NCBI GenBank assembly: GCA_002737725.1
Contig: NSIP01000001.1
Span: 62,001-126,000, forward strand
DNA length: 64,000 nucleotides
Reading direction: 5' to 3'
Source: Rhodospirillaceae bacterium
Lineage (GTDB): Bacteria; Pseudomonadota; Alphaproteobacteria; Rhodospirillales; Rhodospirillaceae
Under the pieces are notes generated by a model, which saw only the letters and a program-made list of their open reading frames with translations, was not told the DNA's origin and searched no databases. Below, one piece after another: positions 2,919-58,097 of the stretch (its first letter is position 1; each line of letters begins with the position of its first letter). A program made the position numbers and the translations under genes.

Positions 2919-3480
2919 TTATTTCTCGAATACCACATCGACGCGGCGATTTTTTTGTTCTTTGACGCCATCGCCAGATTTCACCGTTGGGCGTTCTTCG
3001 CCATAAGCCTCAATGCGCATCTTGTTTTGAGACACGCCTTCTTTGGTCAGCGCGTTGGCCACGGTCTCGGCGCGTTTTTGCGACAAGACTATATTGCTAT
3101 CGCCAACGCCAGACGTATCGGTATGACCTACTACCATGACGGTGGATGGATTATATTTTTTATAAGCCGCGCCAATATCGGTGACGGTCTTGCGGGCTTC
3201 AGGCGTGAGGGCAGAGCTGTTGAATGTGCTTTTGCAGGCTTCAATGTCTTTGGGTTGGAAATTTTCTTCTTGTTGTTCCATCCAGCAATCAACGGCCGTC
3301 TGCGCTAGCGAGGCTTGGGCTGGTAAGGCCTTGCGATTGTCGTCGGTCAGCACCGCCATCAAACGTGTGCGCGCTTCGGTGATGTCGCGCACCGCAGGCT
3401 GAGGAAGGCGGCCCCTTTGTTCGGCATGGCGCGAACGGCATCGACATCACCCGACCCGGCGCAGGCACTGAGCAGACCCG
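2919..3480 (-). pseudogene. OmpA/Pal-type peptidoglycan-binding lipoprotein gene, frameshifted
   Basis: The C-terminal 157 codons (3392 down to 2919) encode an OmpA-like domain with the peptidoglycan-contact segment VVGHTDTSG and the basic NRRVDVVFEK end. The N-terminal part lies in another frame: TPAGLLSAC is a lipobox followed by AGSGDVDAVRAMPNKGAAF. That frame runs into a TAA a few codons upstream with no start codon between, and must slip near 3395-3410 to join the OmpA domain. So at least one indel separates the two halves and the signal peptide is damaged as well. An intact version would be an outer-membrane lipoprotein tethering the envelope to peptidoglycan. Decay and sequence error are both possible. 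Confidence 0.65.
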
Positions 3481-13012: not shown

Positions 13013-13074
13013 CAGTCTTTTTTGTTTGGTCGCATTTTCCACGCCAACCGGTCCCCACTTGTCGGGGAAATGCC

Positions 13075-14025
13075 CTATTTCTTCTTCTCGGCCAAAGCAG
13101 CCAAGCGAAAGCCGATCCAGCCTTGGCGAGCATCGATGCGTGGATCTGGCCCACCGCGCGAGGATGAGCGCATGAATTTCGGACCAGTTCCGTAGGCGCC
13201 GCCGCGCAAGGGAGCATGGGTGCAGTCGCCTATTTGAATCGCCGCCCCGTCACTGCGTTGGCCTTTGTTATCCGTCACCCAGCAATCGGCAATCCATTCC
13301 CAGGCGTTGCCTATCATATCGTAAAGACCCCAGGGGTTAGGCTTTTTCATGCCCACCGGCGCGGTGTAGAGAAATTTGTCGTCGCAGGTGAAGCTGGGAC
13401 GACCTGTGTGCTTGGCGCTTAAGCTAGCATCGGCAACATTGCCATAGGCGCAAATGCCCTCAGGGTCCGTGCCCCAAAAATAGGGCGTATTTGTGCCCGC
13501 GCGATAAGCGTATTCCCACTGCGCGTTGGATGGCAGGTAATAGGTGCGCCCGGTTTTGAGCGTCAGCCAATCGGCATAAGCTTGGGCGTCCACCCAATCG
13601 ATGCAAACCACTGGATGATCGCCACGTTGATCGAGGTCGTTCTTGGTCCAGGTTTGATCGCTTGAGCGAATCCAATCGCCCTTCCACAGCACACAGCCGG
13701 GCTTGATCTCGTGCTTCGAGGCTTTCATGAACGCTTCAAACTGATCGCGCGTGACTTCAAACACACCGATTGCAAACGACTGCGCGATGGTGACGTTTAT
13801 TTGTGGCGTTTCCCAGGTCAGGCGCTGGCGTTCGATGTCGGTGGACCATTTCACTTCGTTGACCAGCGATTCAGGCGCCCCCATCACGAACGGGCCCGCC
13901 GGAACAATTTTCATTTCCGGGCAATCGGCACAATCGCGGAAAATCGCGGGGTCGGGCTTTTGCTCCTGCGCCGACGCGGCCCCCATGAATGCGAGCAGCG
14001 CGAACCCTAAAACATCAAACCGCAT
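13075..14025 (-). CDS. Secreted SUMF1/FGE-like domain protein (catalytic cysteines not seen)
   Basis: A 316-aa protein with a signal peptide (MRFDVLGFALLAFMGAASA). The SUMF1 fold follows: CADCPEMKIVPAGPFVMGA, FEVTRDQFEAFM, YYLPSNAQWEYAYRAGTNTPYFWG, WGLYDMIGNAWEWIADCW and RGGAYGTGPKFMRSSSR, ending WIGFRLAAL. True formylglycine-generating enzymes carry a redox Cys pair in the late GGSFLC..YC region. Here that segment reads RGGAYGTG and has no Cys, so sulfatase activation is unlikely. Export to the periplasm suggests binding or a different oxidation chemistry. It is the intact partner of the broken gene downstream. Confidence 0.75.
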   Translation of the reverse strand: MRFDVLGFALLAFMGAASAQEQKPDPAIFRDCADCPEMKIVPAGPFVMGAPESLVNEVKWSTDIERQRLTWETPQINVTIAQSFAIGVFEVTRDQFEAFMKASKHEIKPGCVLWKGDWIRSSDQTWTKNDLDQRGDHPVVCIDWVDAQAYADWLTLKTGRTYYLPSNAQWEYAYRAGTNTPYFWGTDPEGICAYGNVADASLSAKHTGRPSFTCDDKFLYTAPVGMKKPNPWGLYDMIGNAWEWIADCWVTDNKGQRSDGAAIQIGDCTHAPLRGGAYGTGPKFMRSSSRGGPDPRIDARQGWIGFRLAALAEKKK

Positions 14026-48212: not shown

Positions 48213-48967
48213 ATAGGCTTCCCACCCGACATTCAATTTGCCAACGAAGAGTCCAGCTGGAACTACGAAATCGGCACCAAGAATACATTCTTAGATGGTC
48301 GATTGGTTGCCAATTCTCCGGCCAATACATTGACTGGTCGAATCAACAACTGACCACAAACTTTATTTTCCCAACGGGCGGCAAGGCCTCTTATCTGATT
48401 AACGCCGGGAAAACGCGCGCGAAGATCGTTGAAGCAAGACTTAACGCTGCAGTCAATGAGTACCTGACGGCGGGTGCATCATTGGCGATCAAAAATGCGA
48501 AATTCCGCATCCTGAATGACCCGGAAGCCACCGAGCTGTTTGGAAACCCATCCCTCAAAGGAAAGCACACACCGAATGCGCCAAAATATCAGTCCACTGT
48601 TTTTGGAAAGACCACCTATCCGTTAAACGATCAGGCCAATTCGTTTTCATGAACTGATGTGGCCTACAACGGGCGAAAGTTTGATCAGATCCTCAACCTC
48701 GCCCATACCGGCGAGCATTACCTCGTGAATATGAAGCTGGGTGTTGAAACTGATACGTGCAACGTGACTCTTTTTATCGACAATCTGACAAACGATAAAA
48801 CGCCCTCGATGGTGGTCCGGCACGTGGACCAAATGCACTTAAACGTGACGCCCAAGCCCAATGCAGCACTGAACAATGTCCCGGGCACAACGATGCAAGA
48901 GCGAGCCTTTCGGTATCCTTTGGCGGCGAAGCGGCGGTTCGGAGTGACTGCGACTTATAATTTCTAA
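48213..48967 (+). pseudogene. C-terminal remnant of a TonB-dependent receptor
   Basis: GFPPDIQFANEESSWNYEIGTKN and TFLDGRLVA are typical late-barrel sequence in one frame. The reading then shifts near 48310 to another frame (IDWSNQQLTTNFIFPTGG, KNAKFRILNDPEAT), hits TGA at 48650-48652 and continues TDVAYNGRKFDQILNLAHTG to RRFGVTATYNF and a TAA at 48965. The last residue Phe is the outer-membrane barrel signature. The plug domain and most strands are missing. It fills what would otherwise be a 0.9-kb gap before metK. Confidence 0.7.
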
Positions 48968-48991
48968 GCCTTGAAAACCTGTGATTGTGAG

Positions 48992-49018
48992 AGAGGTCCT
49001 GTCAAGCGCGGGGCCTCT
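48992..49018 (+). terminator. Terminator-like hairpin before metK
   Basis: AGAGGTCC (48992-48999) pairs with GGGCCTCT (49011-49018), 8 bp with one G-U, followed only by TGATTT. It may stop transcription entering from the receptor remnant. The T-run is weak. Confidence 0.4.
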
Positions 49019-49072
49019 TGATTTGAGGGCCATCGTTCGAGCCCGGGCCAGCCCTTGCCAGAACCGCTATTT

Positions 49073-49119
49073 TTCGATAACCCCAACCCCCATATGAGGC
49101 CTTTATCGGGACTATCGAA
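49073..49119 (+). promoter_or_regulatory. metK leader with two mutually exclusive hairpins
   Basis: TTCGATA (49073-49079) can pair with TATCGAA (49113-49119). The overlapping CGATAA (49075-49080) can instead pair with TTATCG (49103-49108). The two structures exclude each other and lie 24 nt before the metK start. The arrangement resembles an attenuation switch. It does not match a SAM riboswitch class that I recognise. Confidence 0.35.
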
Positions 49120-49142
49120 TTCTGGCCTTAACGGAGCATCCA

Positions 49143-50315
49143 GTGTCGAAGAAGAACTATATTTTTACGAGCGAGTCCGTGTCCGAAGGGCATCCAGACA
49201 AAGTCAGCGATCGCATCTCTGATTCGATCGTTGATTTGTTTCTGGCCGCAGACCCTTATGCCCGTGTCGCGCTGGAAACCTTGTGCACAACCAACAGAAT
49301 TGTTCTGGCCGGCGAAGTTCGCGGACCGGCCAGCATTACGCACGATAAAATGGCAGCGGCTGCCCGCCAGGCCGTGAAAGATATTGGTTACGAACAGGAC
49401 GGGTTTCACTGGAAGAACGCCGTCGTTGATTGTCACGTCCACTCGCAATCAGCCGACATCGCAGTTGGTGTTGATGCGGCGGGAAACAAGGACGAGGGAG
49501 CCGGCGACCAGGGCATCATGTTTGGTTTTGCCGTGAACGAAACGCCTGAACTAATGCCTGCGCCGATTCACTATTCGCATCAGATTTTGAAAGTCCTAGC
49601 CGACGCGCGTCACGCCAAAGATGTTCCGTTCCTTGGGCCCGATGCCAAAAGTCAGGTCACCCTTCAATACGAAAATGGACACCCGGTGCGCGCCACATCC
49701 ATCGTTGTGTCAACGCAGCACACGCCTGAGGTCGATCAGGAAACCATTCGCAACTATGTCCGCAAACATGTTTTGAACGTTTTGCCAGAAGGCTGGATGT
49801 GCCCCGAGGAAGAATTTTATGTGAACCCCACGGGTCGATTTGTCATTGGCGGGCCAGACGGTGATTGCGGACTGACGGGACGAAAAATTATTGTCGACAC
49901 ATACGGCGGGGCAGCACCCCATGGCGGCGGCGCATTCTCGGGCAAGGACCCAACCAAGGTTGATCGTTCGGCGGCCTATGCCGCGCGCTACCTGGCCAAA
50001 AATGTTGTGGCTGCTGACTTAGCTGACAAGTGCCTCATCCAGCTGTCGTACGCCATTGGCGTTGCAAAGCCATTGTCGGTCTATGTTGATACGCAAGGCA
50101 CCGGTCGGGTCGATGAAGATAAGCTGTCAAAGGTTCTGCAAGAGCTGATGAACCTGAGCCCACGCGGAATTCGTGAACACCTGAAGCTCAACCGCCCGAT
50201 TTACACCCGCACGTCTTCATACGGGCATTTTGGGCGTGAACCCGATGGTGCAGGTGGGTTTAGTTGGGAGCGCTTAGATTTGGTTGATGCGCTCGAATCA
50301 GCCTTCGGTGTCTAG
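49143..50315 (+). CDS. metK: S-adenosylmethionine synthetase
   Basis: Makes SAM from methionine and ATP. The 390-aa protein has [20 protein letters not shown] at the start, the [12 protein letters not shown] signature and [19 protein letters not shown]. The start is GTG at 49143. A palindromic repeat begins 2 nt after its stop. Many SAM-dependent enzymes in the window (RlmN, RsmB, MiaB, TrmB) depend on it. Confidence 0.98.
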
Positions 50316-50317
50316 GA

Positions 50318-50360
50318 GCATTTTCCCGAGAAGTGATCTTCCACTTTGCGTGAAAAATGC
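50318..50360. repeat. Nested-hairpin palindromic element, copy B, overlapping the trmB start
   Basis: GCATTTT (50318-50324) pairs with AAAATGC (50354-50360), with an inner AAGTG/CACTT stem (50331-50335 and 50342-50346). It starts 2 nt after the metK stop. The trmB ATG (50357-50359) lies inside the distal arm, so folding would hide the start codon. Same family as copies at 32083 and 58031. Confidence 0.65.
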
Positions 50361-51067
50361 AACCAATCAATAATCCATCCGAACATCGTGTTCTTTATTA
50401 CGGTCGCCGCAAGGGAAAGCCCCTCACCGCGGCCCGTCAGGATGTTGTTGAACGCCTCCTGCCACGCCTGAAGATCAATGCACCTCCCAGTGGCAGCACG
50501 CTTGATCCGCAGAGTCTCTTTCCAGAGTCGATTAAAGAGATCTGGCTTGAGGTTGGGTTTGGTGGCGGTGAGCACTTGGCCGCGCACGCCGAAACGAACC
50601 CAACCGTTGGTATCATTGGCGCTGAGGTTTTTTTGAACGGCGTTGCTTCGCTGGCCCGGCATATCGAACAAAAGTCGCTCGGCAATGTACGTATCTTCAA
50701 CGACGATGTGCGATTCTTACTGCCCGCACTTCCCGACCAGTGCCTGTCGCGGGTTTTTGTCATGTTTCCCGACCCCTGGCCCAAGGCACGGCATGCCAAA
50801 CGCCGGTTCATTGGCCCGGAAAACTTGAAAAGCTTGGCGCGCTTGATGCGGGCGGGGGCAGAATTGCGGGTGGCTAGCGACCACCCGGTCTATATCCAGT
50901 GGGTGATGGAGCAAATGAGCGCGCACCCCAACTTTGAGTGGGGCGCCCAAGGACTAAAAGACTGTTTAAATGCGTCTGCGGACCATGCGGTGACCCGTTA
51001 CCAACTCAAGGCTCAAAAAGAAGGCCGAAAGCCGCATTTTTTTCGATTTTTTCGTAAAGTTGGCTAA
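50357..51067 (+). CDS. trmB: tRNA (guanine-N7-)-methyltransferase
   Basis: Methylates G46 of tRNA. The 236-aa protein has WLEVGFGGGEHLAAHA as the SAM loop, IGAEVF, FPDPWPKARHAKRRF and the late ASDHPVYIQWV. RVLYYGRRKGKPL near the N-terminus is the family RxxGRRxG segment. ATG 50357 is the first possible start, as a TGA precedes it in frame by two codons. That ATG lies within a palindromic repeat. Confidence 0.96.
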   Translation: MQPINNPSEHRVLYYGRRKGKPLTAARQDVVERLLPRLKINAPPSGSTLDPQSLFPESIKEIWLEVGFGGGEHLAAHAETNPTVGIIGAEVFLNGVASLARHIEQKSLGNVRIFNDDVRFLLPALPDQCLSRVFVMFPDPWPKARHAKRRFIGPENLKSLARLMRAGAELRVASDHPVYIQWVMEQMSAHPNFEWGAQGLKDCLNASADHAVTRYQLKAQKEGRKPHFFRFFRKVG

Positions 51068-51159
51068 TCATCCGACACCCCGAAGCCCCGGGGAGCCCTT
51101 GCAAACTGCGGGAAATCGCACTACATGTACCTCTGACTTTCACTGTCGGACGACTGAGG

Positions 51160-51187
51160 AAGTGGCCCCACTCGGCCACTTTTTTTA
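51160..51187 (+). terminator. Rho-independent terminator after trmB
   Basis: AAGTGGCC (51160-51167), loop CCACTC, GGCCACTT (51174-51181), then a run of T to 51186. The stem is perfect. It separates metK-trmB from the rimP-nusA-infB operon. Confidence 0.85.
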
Positions 51188-51250
51188 TTGCCTAAACGAT
51201 GGCGATTCGCGCGGTCTGCCCAACATTGAAAGTGGCTTTTGGGACATGCT

Positions 51251-51775
51251 GTGGAACGACTCCTCTCACTGGAAGACCGCGTTGCGCCGATACTTGAATC
51301 GATGGGGTTCGAGGTGGTGCGCATTGCGTTAACGAAGGCCAGTGGTGATGGACACCGGACGATGCAAGTCATGGCTGATCGCCTGGATGGCCACCTGATC
51401 TCGATCGAGGATTGCGAAGCCATCAGTTACACGCTGTCGGCGATTTTCGATGTCGAGGAACCGATCACAAACGCCTACGATCTTGAAGTGAGCTCGGCTG
51501 GCATTGATCGACCGCTGACGCGCGCCAAGGATTTTGTGAGGTACGCGGGGTTCGAGGCGAAGGTTGAACTTAAGCTCGCCATTGATGGGCGGCGGCGGTT
51601 CAAGGGAATCGTCAAAGGTCTGGGCGAGAATGGGAATGTGGTTGTGATTGTTGATGGTGTCGATGTGCAATTGCCACTCGACAACATCACGCAAGCAAAA
51701 TTGGTACTCACGAATAATTTAATGGCGGCGATGGCCAAGGGCCTTCCACCCCAGAGTGAAAAAAATAAAGACTAG
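51251..51775 (+). CDS. rimP: Ribosome maturation factor RimP
   Basis: Assists 30S assembly. The 174-aa protein has VAPILESMGFEVVRIAL, ISIEDCEAISYTLSAIFDVE and LEVSSAGIDRPLTRAKDF, all family blocks. The GTG at 51251 follows GGGAC; a TTG at 51239 is the alternative. It opens the nusA-infB operon 64 nt after a terminator, so its promoter should lie between 51182 and 51250, though no clear hexamers were seen. Confidence 0.95.
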   Translation: MERLLSLEDRVAPILESMGFEVVRIALTKASGDGHRTMQVMADRLDGHLISIEDCEAISYTLSAIFDVEEPITNAYDLEVSSAGIDRPLTRAKDFVRYAGFEAKVELKLAIDGRRRFKGIVKGLGENGNVVVIVDGVDVQLPLDNITQAKLVLTNNLMAAMAKGLPPQSEKNKD

Positions 51776-57097: not shown

Positions 57098-58024
57098 ATG
57101 GGCAAGCGCCGGGGGCAGCCGATTCACGGCTGGATTGCGATCGATAAGCCAGAGGGCTTGTCGTCGGCCGCCGTGGTCGCGCGCGTTCGCAGATTTTTGG
57201 ATGCAGCCAAGGCTGGCCATGCGGGGACTTTGGATCCGCTCGCGACCGGCATCATCCCCATTGCCTTGGGCGAGGCGACCAAAACTGTTTCTTTTGCCAT
57301 GGATGGGCACAAGACCTACGAGTTCACCGCCGTGTGGGGCGTGGCGACAGACACCGACGACCGCGAAGGCAAAACCACGACGACCTCAGACGTGCGTCCG
57401 ACTCGGGAGGCGATCTTGGCCGCTTTGCCGCGATTCGTCGGCGAAATTGACCAGGTTCCCCCCATCTATTCGGCTATCAAGGTTGATGGCGAGCGCGCCT
57501 ACGCCTTGGCCCGAGGGGGTGAGAATTTTGAGTTAAAGTCGCGCAAAATAAACGTCTACTCATTTGATTTGATTAGTGAAAACGAATCTGAAACTACTTT
57601 TTTTAGAGTCCATTGCGGCAAAGGAACTTATATCCGCTCCCTGGTTCGAGATCTGGCGCAAGCGCTGGGAACGGTGGGGCATATTGGTACTTTGCGGCGC
57701 ACGGCTTGCGGTGTTTTTAACGAATCGGCGGCAATTTCGCTGGATAAATGGGAGGCCCTTGGGCATAGTCCTGACGCCTTGGCTTACCTGAGGCCGGTTC
57801 GAACCGTGCTGGACGACATCCCGGCTCTGGCTCTGACCCCGCAGGAAGCGCACCGCCTTCGCCACGGACAAAGCATTGCTTTGTTTCCGCTGGCCCAGCG
57901 AAACCCTCAGGCCAAACTTACACAGGGAATGCCTGTGCAAGCTGTGCTGGGGGAAACGTTGGTGGCGTTAGCCGAGGTGGGCAACGGCATCCTGCTGTCC
58001 TCGCGCGTCATGGCTTACGAGTAA
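57098..58024 (+). CDS. truB: tRNA pseudouridine(55) synthase TruB
   Basis: Forms pseudouridine 55 in the T-loop of tRNAs. The 308-aa protein has IHGWIAIDKPEGLSSA, the catalytic HAGTLDPLATG with the nucleophile Asp, PPIYSAIKVDGERAYALAR and CGKGTYIRSLVRDL. Its 5' end follows rbfA by 8 nt. A palindromic repeat begins 6 nt after its stop. Confidence 0.97.
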   Translation: MGKRRGQPIHGWIAIDKPEGLSSAAVVARVRRFLDAAKAGHAGTLDPLATGIIPIALGEATKTVSFAMDGHKTYEFTAVWGVATDTDDREGKTTTTSDVRPTREAILAALPRFVGEIDQVPPIYSAIKVDGERAYALARGGENFELKSRKINVYSFDLISENESETTFFRVHCGKGTYIRSLVRDLAQALGTVGHIGTLRRTACGVFNESAAISLDKWEALGHSPDALAYLRPVRTVLDDIPALALTPQEAHRLRHGQSIALFPLAQRNPQAKLTQGMPVQAVLGETLVALAEVGNGILLSSRVMAYE

Positions 58025-58030
58025 CCGCGA

Positions 58031-58075
58031 GCATTTTCCCGAGAAGTGGTCTTCCGCTTCGGCCGTGGAAAATGC
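58031..58075. repeat. Nested-hairpin palindromic element, copy C
   Basis: GCATTTTCC (58031-58039) pairs with GGAAAATGC (58067-58075), and the inner GAAGTGG (58043-58049) with CCGCTTC (58054-58060). It begins 6 nt after the truB stop and ends 22 nt before rpsO. It shares the core GAGAAGTGGTCTTCC and the trailing GCGACCA with the other two copies. Confidence 0.65.
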
Positions 58076-58097
58076 GACCAACATATAGGAGTACCCG

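Follow-up and report, generated by a model that had tools for sequence, protein, structure and literature searches.

The tRNA methyltransferase gene trmB of this Rhodospirillaceae genome most probably owes its present start codon to a small palindromic repeat, a reading to which we assign a probability of roughly 0.8. A repeat seated on the stop codon of the upstream metK gene would have cut off the older GTG start of trmB, and an ATG in the arm of the repeat would have become the start in its place. The replacement of a start codon by a repeat arm is the best part of the finding and is supported by the empty sites of related genomes. The junction can be viewed as a natural experiment, in which a small palindrome appears to have broken an overlapping, probably coupled gene pair and to have replaced the start of a conserved methyltransferase gene.

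The metK-trmB junction

All coordinates refer to the window, i.e., the whole stretch of 64,000 nucleotides that was analysed. The features of the junction, and the copies of the repeat in the window, are listed below.

49143-50315, + strand: metK, methionine adenosyltransferase (TIGR01034, 498.9 bits)
50308-50310, + strand: putative old trmB start GTG, in the last codons of metK (same-place GTG in four of four genus-mates)
50313-50315, + strand: metK stop TAG, made of TA and the first G of the repeat (other copies share this register)
50314-50318, + strand: AGGAG, resembling a Shine-Dalgarno sequence, at the hairpin's 5' foot (from the sequence; role putative)
50314-50371, + strand: 58-bp inserted stretch (from comparison with genus-mates; 58 is 1 modulo 3)
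50315-50370, + strand: palindromic repeat copy B (48 of its first 52 bases agree with the typed family consensus, without indels)
50318-50324, + strand: proximal arm GCATTTT (sequence and fold)
50326-50352, + strand: inner stem-loop, in which 50326-50328 and 50330-50335 pair with bases of 50342-50352 (fold and family covariation)
50351-50353, + strand: in-frame TGA barring any earlier trmB start (sequence)
50354-50360, + strand: distal arm AAAATGC, containing the trmB start (sequence and fold)
50357-50359, + strand: trmB start ATG as it now stands, the sole usable in-frame start before codon 74
50357-51067, + strand: trmB, tRNA (guanine46-N7)-methyltransferase, 236 aa (PF02390, 138 bits)
13016-13080 (- strand), 50311-50376 (+ strand) and 58024-58091 (+ strand): copies of the repeat in the window, as matched by the family model

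The trmB gene cleared the PF02390 threshold comfortably, scored 109 bits against TIGR00091, slightly below the cut-off of 112.65, and is the single match to its family in the genome at E <= 0.001. The encoded protein is intact and shares 77% identity with the orthologue of the genus-mate G004, with a pN of 0.16 against a pS of 0.74, the latter being near saturation and mostly predating the insertion.

A preliminary description of this DNA had proposed that ATG 50357-50359 is the only plausible trmB start, that it belongs to an arm AAAATGC pairing with GCATTTT, and that an in-frame TGA excludes any earlier start, all of which the sequence bears out. One codon separates the TGA from the ATG, and in the first 100 codons scanned the next in-frame ATG, GTG or TTG is a TTG at codon 74, which falls past the conserved YGRRxG motif (residues 15-20). 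Among CTG, ATT, ATC and ATA, an ATC at codon 4 (50366) is the single occurrence before codon 35. Ribosomes would then be expected to initiate at ATG 50357. The same description saw no separate Shine-Dalgarno sequence; this holds at normal spacing, but an AGGAG does occur further off, at the hairpin's 5' foot and 38 nt ahead of the ATG. Since Shine-Dalgarno-like 4-mers precede just 10 of 50 control starts (crude longest-ORF calls in this window), the lack of such a sequence is the usual condition here.

Empty sites in related genomes

Four genomes of the same genus were available for comparison (G001-G004, the window's own genome being G000). The repeat is absent from the metK-trmB junction in all of them, and in each the GTG of trmB sits within ...GGTGTCTGA, overlapping the end of metK by 8 nt. 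Among the matches listed for the 29 relatives L019-L047, the last start before YGRRxG was judged by eye to overlap metK in 17.

We propose the following course of events. Before the insertion, trmB would have begun at a GTG in the last codons of metK. A REP-like palindromic repeat, belonging to a genus-wide family, would have inserted at the metK stop codon and completed a new stop from TA and its own G. As the insert measures 58 bp, which is 1 modulo 3, the old GTG would have been thrown out of frame with trmB; the ATG of the distal arm would have chanced to be in frame and open and become the trmB start, the first two residues of TrmB being replaced by M-Q-P-I-N. When the 58 bp were deleted in silico, GTG TCT joined AAT CCA in frame with trmB, and the resulting product VSNPSEHRVLYYGRRKGK aligned with VSEPETTSRVLYYGRRKG, VSETNTGPRVLHYGRRKG, VSERKEGQRLLYYGRRKG and VSEASQAPRVLYYGRRKG of the relatives.

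The boundaries of the insert are ambiguous by 1-2 nt because TA stands on both sides of copy B, and the reconstructed pre-insertion sequence assumes a TAA where the four genus-mates have TGA; a TAA at the metK stop position is present in one family member (L028). The junction is known from one assembly, of one genome of the species. A TA target-site duplication was also considered as a rule of the repeat family and was not upheld, TA preceding only 35 of the 94 scored copies on the 5' side. Since the family does not typically show a clear target-site duplication, the choice between insertion and other rearrangements rests on the empty sites.

Translation of trmB could still begin at the old GTG 50308 if a +1 slip at the A-run 50353-50357 restored the frame, or if the present frame were an assembly error. 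The GTG frame can indeed be read through the repeat as far as the TAA at 50371-50373, and it shares AAAAA with the trmB frame, but the A-run is short, no stop or obvious stalling codon follows it, and a simple ATG is available. Moreover, over 52 bases copy B is neither longer nor shorter than the consensus, which makes an assembly indel within the core an unlikely cause of the frame. We consider this the least probable of the alternatives examined, and start replacement by the inserted repeat is retained as the preferred reading.

A related palindrome was spotted by eye in Caulobacter vibrioides T5M6 (L062, about 2944-3003), one of the eight Caulobacter loci examined, where it lies between metK and trmB in the opposite orientation; it is probably an independent arrival.

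The repeat family

The junction DNA, used as a query, matched 17 places in the same genome, and a covariance model built from 15 of these found 30 copies in the genome and 27, 7, 11 and 26 copies in G001, G002, G003 and G004, respectively. Overall, 99 distinct copies from the five congeneric genomes (loci L068-L121 and L139-L184) were analysed, after four of 103 model matches (L169 and the second matches of L110, L116 and L163) had been dropped as duplicates of the same copy or opposite-strand matches; the genus search counted 101 places, the difference of two being due to overlapping tandem neighbours in contigs C55 of G004 and C31 of G001. At E <= 1e-4 the model matched 8 of 41 genomes of the bacterial family, four of which, the window's own included, belong to this genus; the repeat is rare in the family outside the genus. 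A model match usually covers about 66 nt, and copies with extra internal sequence reach 80-82 nt (L090, L091, L112, L175, L184) or 108-112 nt (L088, L149, L180, L182), hence the family tolerates inserts within the palindrome.

Two-sided changes occur in 12 of the 13 stem pairs (103 rows, 101 distinct), none of 500 shuffles reached any of five covariation measures, and two-sided cells numbered 31 against 20 in the best slid version, in a test favoured by an alignment fitted to the structure from 15 of the same copies and by the relatedness of the rows. DNA mobility may account for the conservation of the stem just as well as a function of the RNA.

Position of the repeats on stop codons

In 63 of the 99 copies, an open frame of 100 codons or more, with no start codon required, has its stop between -10 and +4 relative to the repeat's first G (22 of 30 copies in the window's own genome, 41 of 69 in the genus-mates). 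The distribution peaks where the stop ends exactly on the first base of the repeat, as it does in 28 copies (22 TAG, 6 TAA). An opposite-strand stop lies at the other end in 50 of the 99 copies; both ends are so occupied in 29 and neither in 15. Random 12-nt windows from the same loci, most of which must fall inside genes, matched stops in 69 of 1980 draws at a limit of 80 codons. Where TA precedes GGAGC (35 copies), it is part of a stop codon in 28, compared with 48 of the 338 TAs in non-coding DNA of the window. Some copies are orthologous between genomes and thus not independent, so that a binomial value exaggerates the contrast; in the window's own genome alone the count is 13 of 14.

Copy B obeys this rule with respect to metK, and trmB was struck because its start overlapped the metK stop. 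A seat on stop codons suggests why the repeats are mostly tolerated, overlapping genes being the exception.

Predicted fold and accessibility of the start

The outer arms GCATTTT and AAAATGC make up an imperfect palindrome together with the inner stem. Folded alone, the 60-nt stretch reached -16 kcal/mol (z -3.3, one of 200 shuffles as good), and the signal was weaker with 111 nt of context (z -1.7, 11 of 200 shuffles as good). Opening the trmB start region was calculated to cost 11.6 kcal/mol, compared with a median of 10.3 kcal/mol for 50 crude control starts of the window, 23 of which cost as much or more, and with 12.3-19.8 kcal/mol for the GTG starts of the four genus-mates. This opening cost being ordinary, the hairpin does not leave the trmB start unusually hidden, and the concealment of the start in the folded RNA, as put forward in the preliminary description, is average for the window and not exceptional.

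The hairpin could also be a selected switch that conceals the trmB start as long as metK is not being translated, TrmB production thus following synthesis of the SAM synthase; such a view is compatible with the insertion history proposed above. In the free RNA both AGGAG and ATG are predicted to be partly paired (unpaired probabilities of 0.31 and 0.17, respectively), the stem is conserved across the repeat family, and coupling by RNA unfolding is treated as a recognised model in a review (PMC12548453). This conservation, however, is a property of the dispersed family and not of the metK-trmB site, the relatives overlapped more tightly before the repeat, and the opening cost is average. Covering 50295-50321 in silico raised the unpaired probability of the trmB ATG from 0.17 to 0.69, whereas with the cover extended to 50325, 50327 or 50330 a small local hairpin re-paired the ATG (unpaired probability <= 0.033); cover of the 5' arm therefore frees the ATG at one of the four footprints tried. 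Coupling via unfolding of the hairpin is possible according to these models, while a switch maintained by selection appears unlikely.

A further role for the fold was considered, in which the inner stem-loop would bring the AGGAG foot near the ATG, at about 12 nt when the inner stem alone is formed. A Shine-Dalgarno sequence bridged by a hairpin in this way has a precedent in gene 38 of phage T4. The AGGAG of 50314-50318 is exact, the geometry fits, and the motif stands at the 5' foot in 30 of the 99 copies; yet the outer arm must open while the inner stem holds, the model requires about 16 kcal/mol to keep 50305-50325 and 50354-50372 open at the same time, and the AGGAG is merely the 5' end of the repeat joined to an A. 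We regard such bridging as quite improbable. More doubtful still is the broader idea that this stop-seeking mobile element is also a portable start, with an initiation site composed of the AGGAG foot, the arm ATG and the stem that bridges them; if so, insertion between overlapping genes would swap termination-reinitiation for hairpin-gated initiation, and trmB would be the first fixed case.

An Rfam scan of 48900-51300 matched no family up to E = 1 and lends no support to a riboswitch or other known RNA, and no terminator-like site was found in 50100-50420. A repeat finder with a 9-base seed reported nothing in 49900-51500, probably because the arms measure just 7 bases. The repeat might instead carry a promoter, from which a leaderless trmB transcript would begin at the ATG, and other small mobile repeats do carry promoters (reviewed in PMC10969869); nevertheless, a scan of 50100-50420 for sigma-70-like sites, the one promoter type searched, returned none, and we hold this origin of the transcript to be very unlikely.

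Consequences for coupling

Under start replacement by the repeat, the spacing between metK and trmB passes from -8 nt, as in the four genus-mates, to +41 nt, which lies outside the overlap or very short gap of termination-reinitiation pairs. An ancestral overlap of 8 nt is an arrangement that favours termination-reinitiation. In six native pairs, taken from E. coli and Haloferax volcanii, a separation of about 20 nt is reported to almost abolish this process (Huber et al. 2023, PMC10666635), and a structure directly after the upstream stop is described in a review as lowering coupling (PMC12548453). As the start has moved to +41, the most likely effect is weaker coupling, and the repeat has probably weakened an ancestral termination-reinitiation coupling and not created one. 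The earlier proposal that a mobile-type repeat had become the initiation region of trmB gains from the four empty sites out of four and the older GTG, whereas its second half, that the repeat couples trmB to metK, is not supported, given the change from -8 to +41 nt. Since the adjacency of metK and trmB is older than the repeat, the special link to SAM supply suggested at the same time is not needed.

As for the working mode today, we would give even odds to ordinary, Shine-Dalgarno-poor initiation of trmB on a metK-trmB transcript; a ribosome terminating on metK and covering the 5' arm perhaps helps. The empty sites in close relatives make the effect of the insertion on coupling measurable.

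Arm start codons elsewhere in the family

Searched with a heuristic script, the 99 copies showed an arm ATG on 65 of their forward and 59 of their reverse sides; 19 outward frames that run for at least 70 codons beyond +60 are in phase with such an ATG. Nine of these were recognised, namely trmB, Oxidored_molyb, nth in two genomes, S49 peptidase in two, His_biosynth, IMPDH and, weakly, Creatinase_N, the second nth (L180) and the second S49 peptidase (L111) being assigned by orthology outside the Pfam scan. All eight recognised genes besides trmB have a further in-frame start 9-27 nt downstream. The other ten frames gave no Pfam match. Eight of them (L142, L113, L085, L177, L153, L148, L146 and L101, the last with an overlap of about half) lie opposite a recognised gene and are for this reason probably spurious; in L164 the arm ATG is the only listed start and the opposite frame is also without a match, and the frame of L088 is short. 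At several recognised genes next to copies, for example ffh, pth, holC and, in another genome, guaB, the arm ATG is out of phase or lost. By inspection, no clear excess of in-phase arm ATGs was seen among the 99 copies. A role of the arm ATG as a general start donor was thus not supported, as the other eight recognised genes keep a second start.

The orthologues of the molybdopterin oxidoreductase in G002, G003 and G004 have no repeat and a start codon near the downstream one, and no match to this gene was found in G001. The nth repeat occupies a site common to G000 (L079/L122) and G003 (L125/L180) and is absent there in G004 and G002. In G000 and G003 the arm ATG of nth is in frame (MFLM.. 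and MLLM..), three codons ahead of the usual start. Upstream of the S49 peptidase, G004 carries two head-to-tail repeats (L128, G004:C55:5500-5626) compared with one in G000.

Comparison with known repeats

Judged from its sequence, the repeat can be called REP-like in a broad sense, as a dispersed palindrome with many copies near gene ends (30 in the genome, and 63 of the 99 on stops), and falls outside the GTAG, CGTC, RAYT and CIR definitions. With the GTAG and CGTC REPs (Di Nocera et al. 2013, PMC3733652) it shares the form of short dispersed palindromes, mostly intergenic and close to the 3' termini of the adjoining genes; in GTAG REPs the TAG stop is often contributed by an end of the repeat, and most conv-REPs lie within 20 bp of both flanking 3' ends in two species. 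GTAG is found at the 5' end of 2 of our 99 copies, and CGTC or GACG, the motifs counted, anywhere in 9 of 99. CGTC REPs, their TGTC and CCTC variants included, have a stem of 8-9 bp and a loop of 4-5 bases, in contrast to the longer, interrupted stem of the present repeat. A RAYT-driven REP was ruled against by the Y1 tyrosine transposase search (PF01797), with no match in the window's genome, an assembly of 37 contigs and about 98% completeness in which a gene may be missed, and with positives in 5 of 14 known control genomes.

The same paper describes some REPs at predicted protein N-termini, and many of these probably lie outside the true coding region (PMC3733652). At trmB, where the sequence offers no alternative start downstream, this escape appears closed.

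Alphaproteobacterial intergenic palindromes also include Bru-RS (PMC2267715) and the CIR elements found in Caulobacter and Brucella (Chen and Shapiro 2003, as described in PMC2229807). A CIR element measures about 110 bp and has two stem-loops and a conserved GANTC, which sets it apart from the present repeat of about 56 bp, with a single stem (about 50 bp) and GANTC in 23 of 99 copies. Correia- and RUP-type MITEs are reported to be dispersed, hairpin-forming and bordered by TA at many ends (PMC2229807, PMC10969869); here TA was counted ahead of the copies as given above, and the transposase search covered Y1_Tnp. An IS630-type MITE with TA as its target would show the duplication at both ends; copy B has TA on both sides, and the count of 35 in 94 scored copies refers to the 5' side.

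Stop codons supplied by palindromes are already known from REPs (PMC3733652), while for an arm-donated start, or for this repeat family, we found no printed description in the portions of the open-access literature consulted (including PMC2229807, PMC2267715, PMC10969869, PMC3733652 and PMC2817692). In the in-frame gene fusions of Rickettsia palindromic elements, as described in two of these sources (PMC2229807, PMC3733652), a palindrome adds residues to a conserved protein, sometimes at its N-terminus; at trmB, by comparison, the palindrome would give the start codon itself and the residues that follow, after the old start had been cut off.
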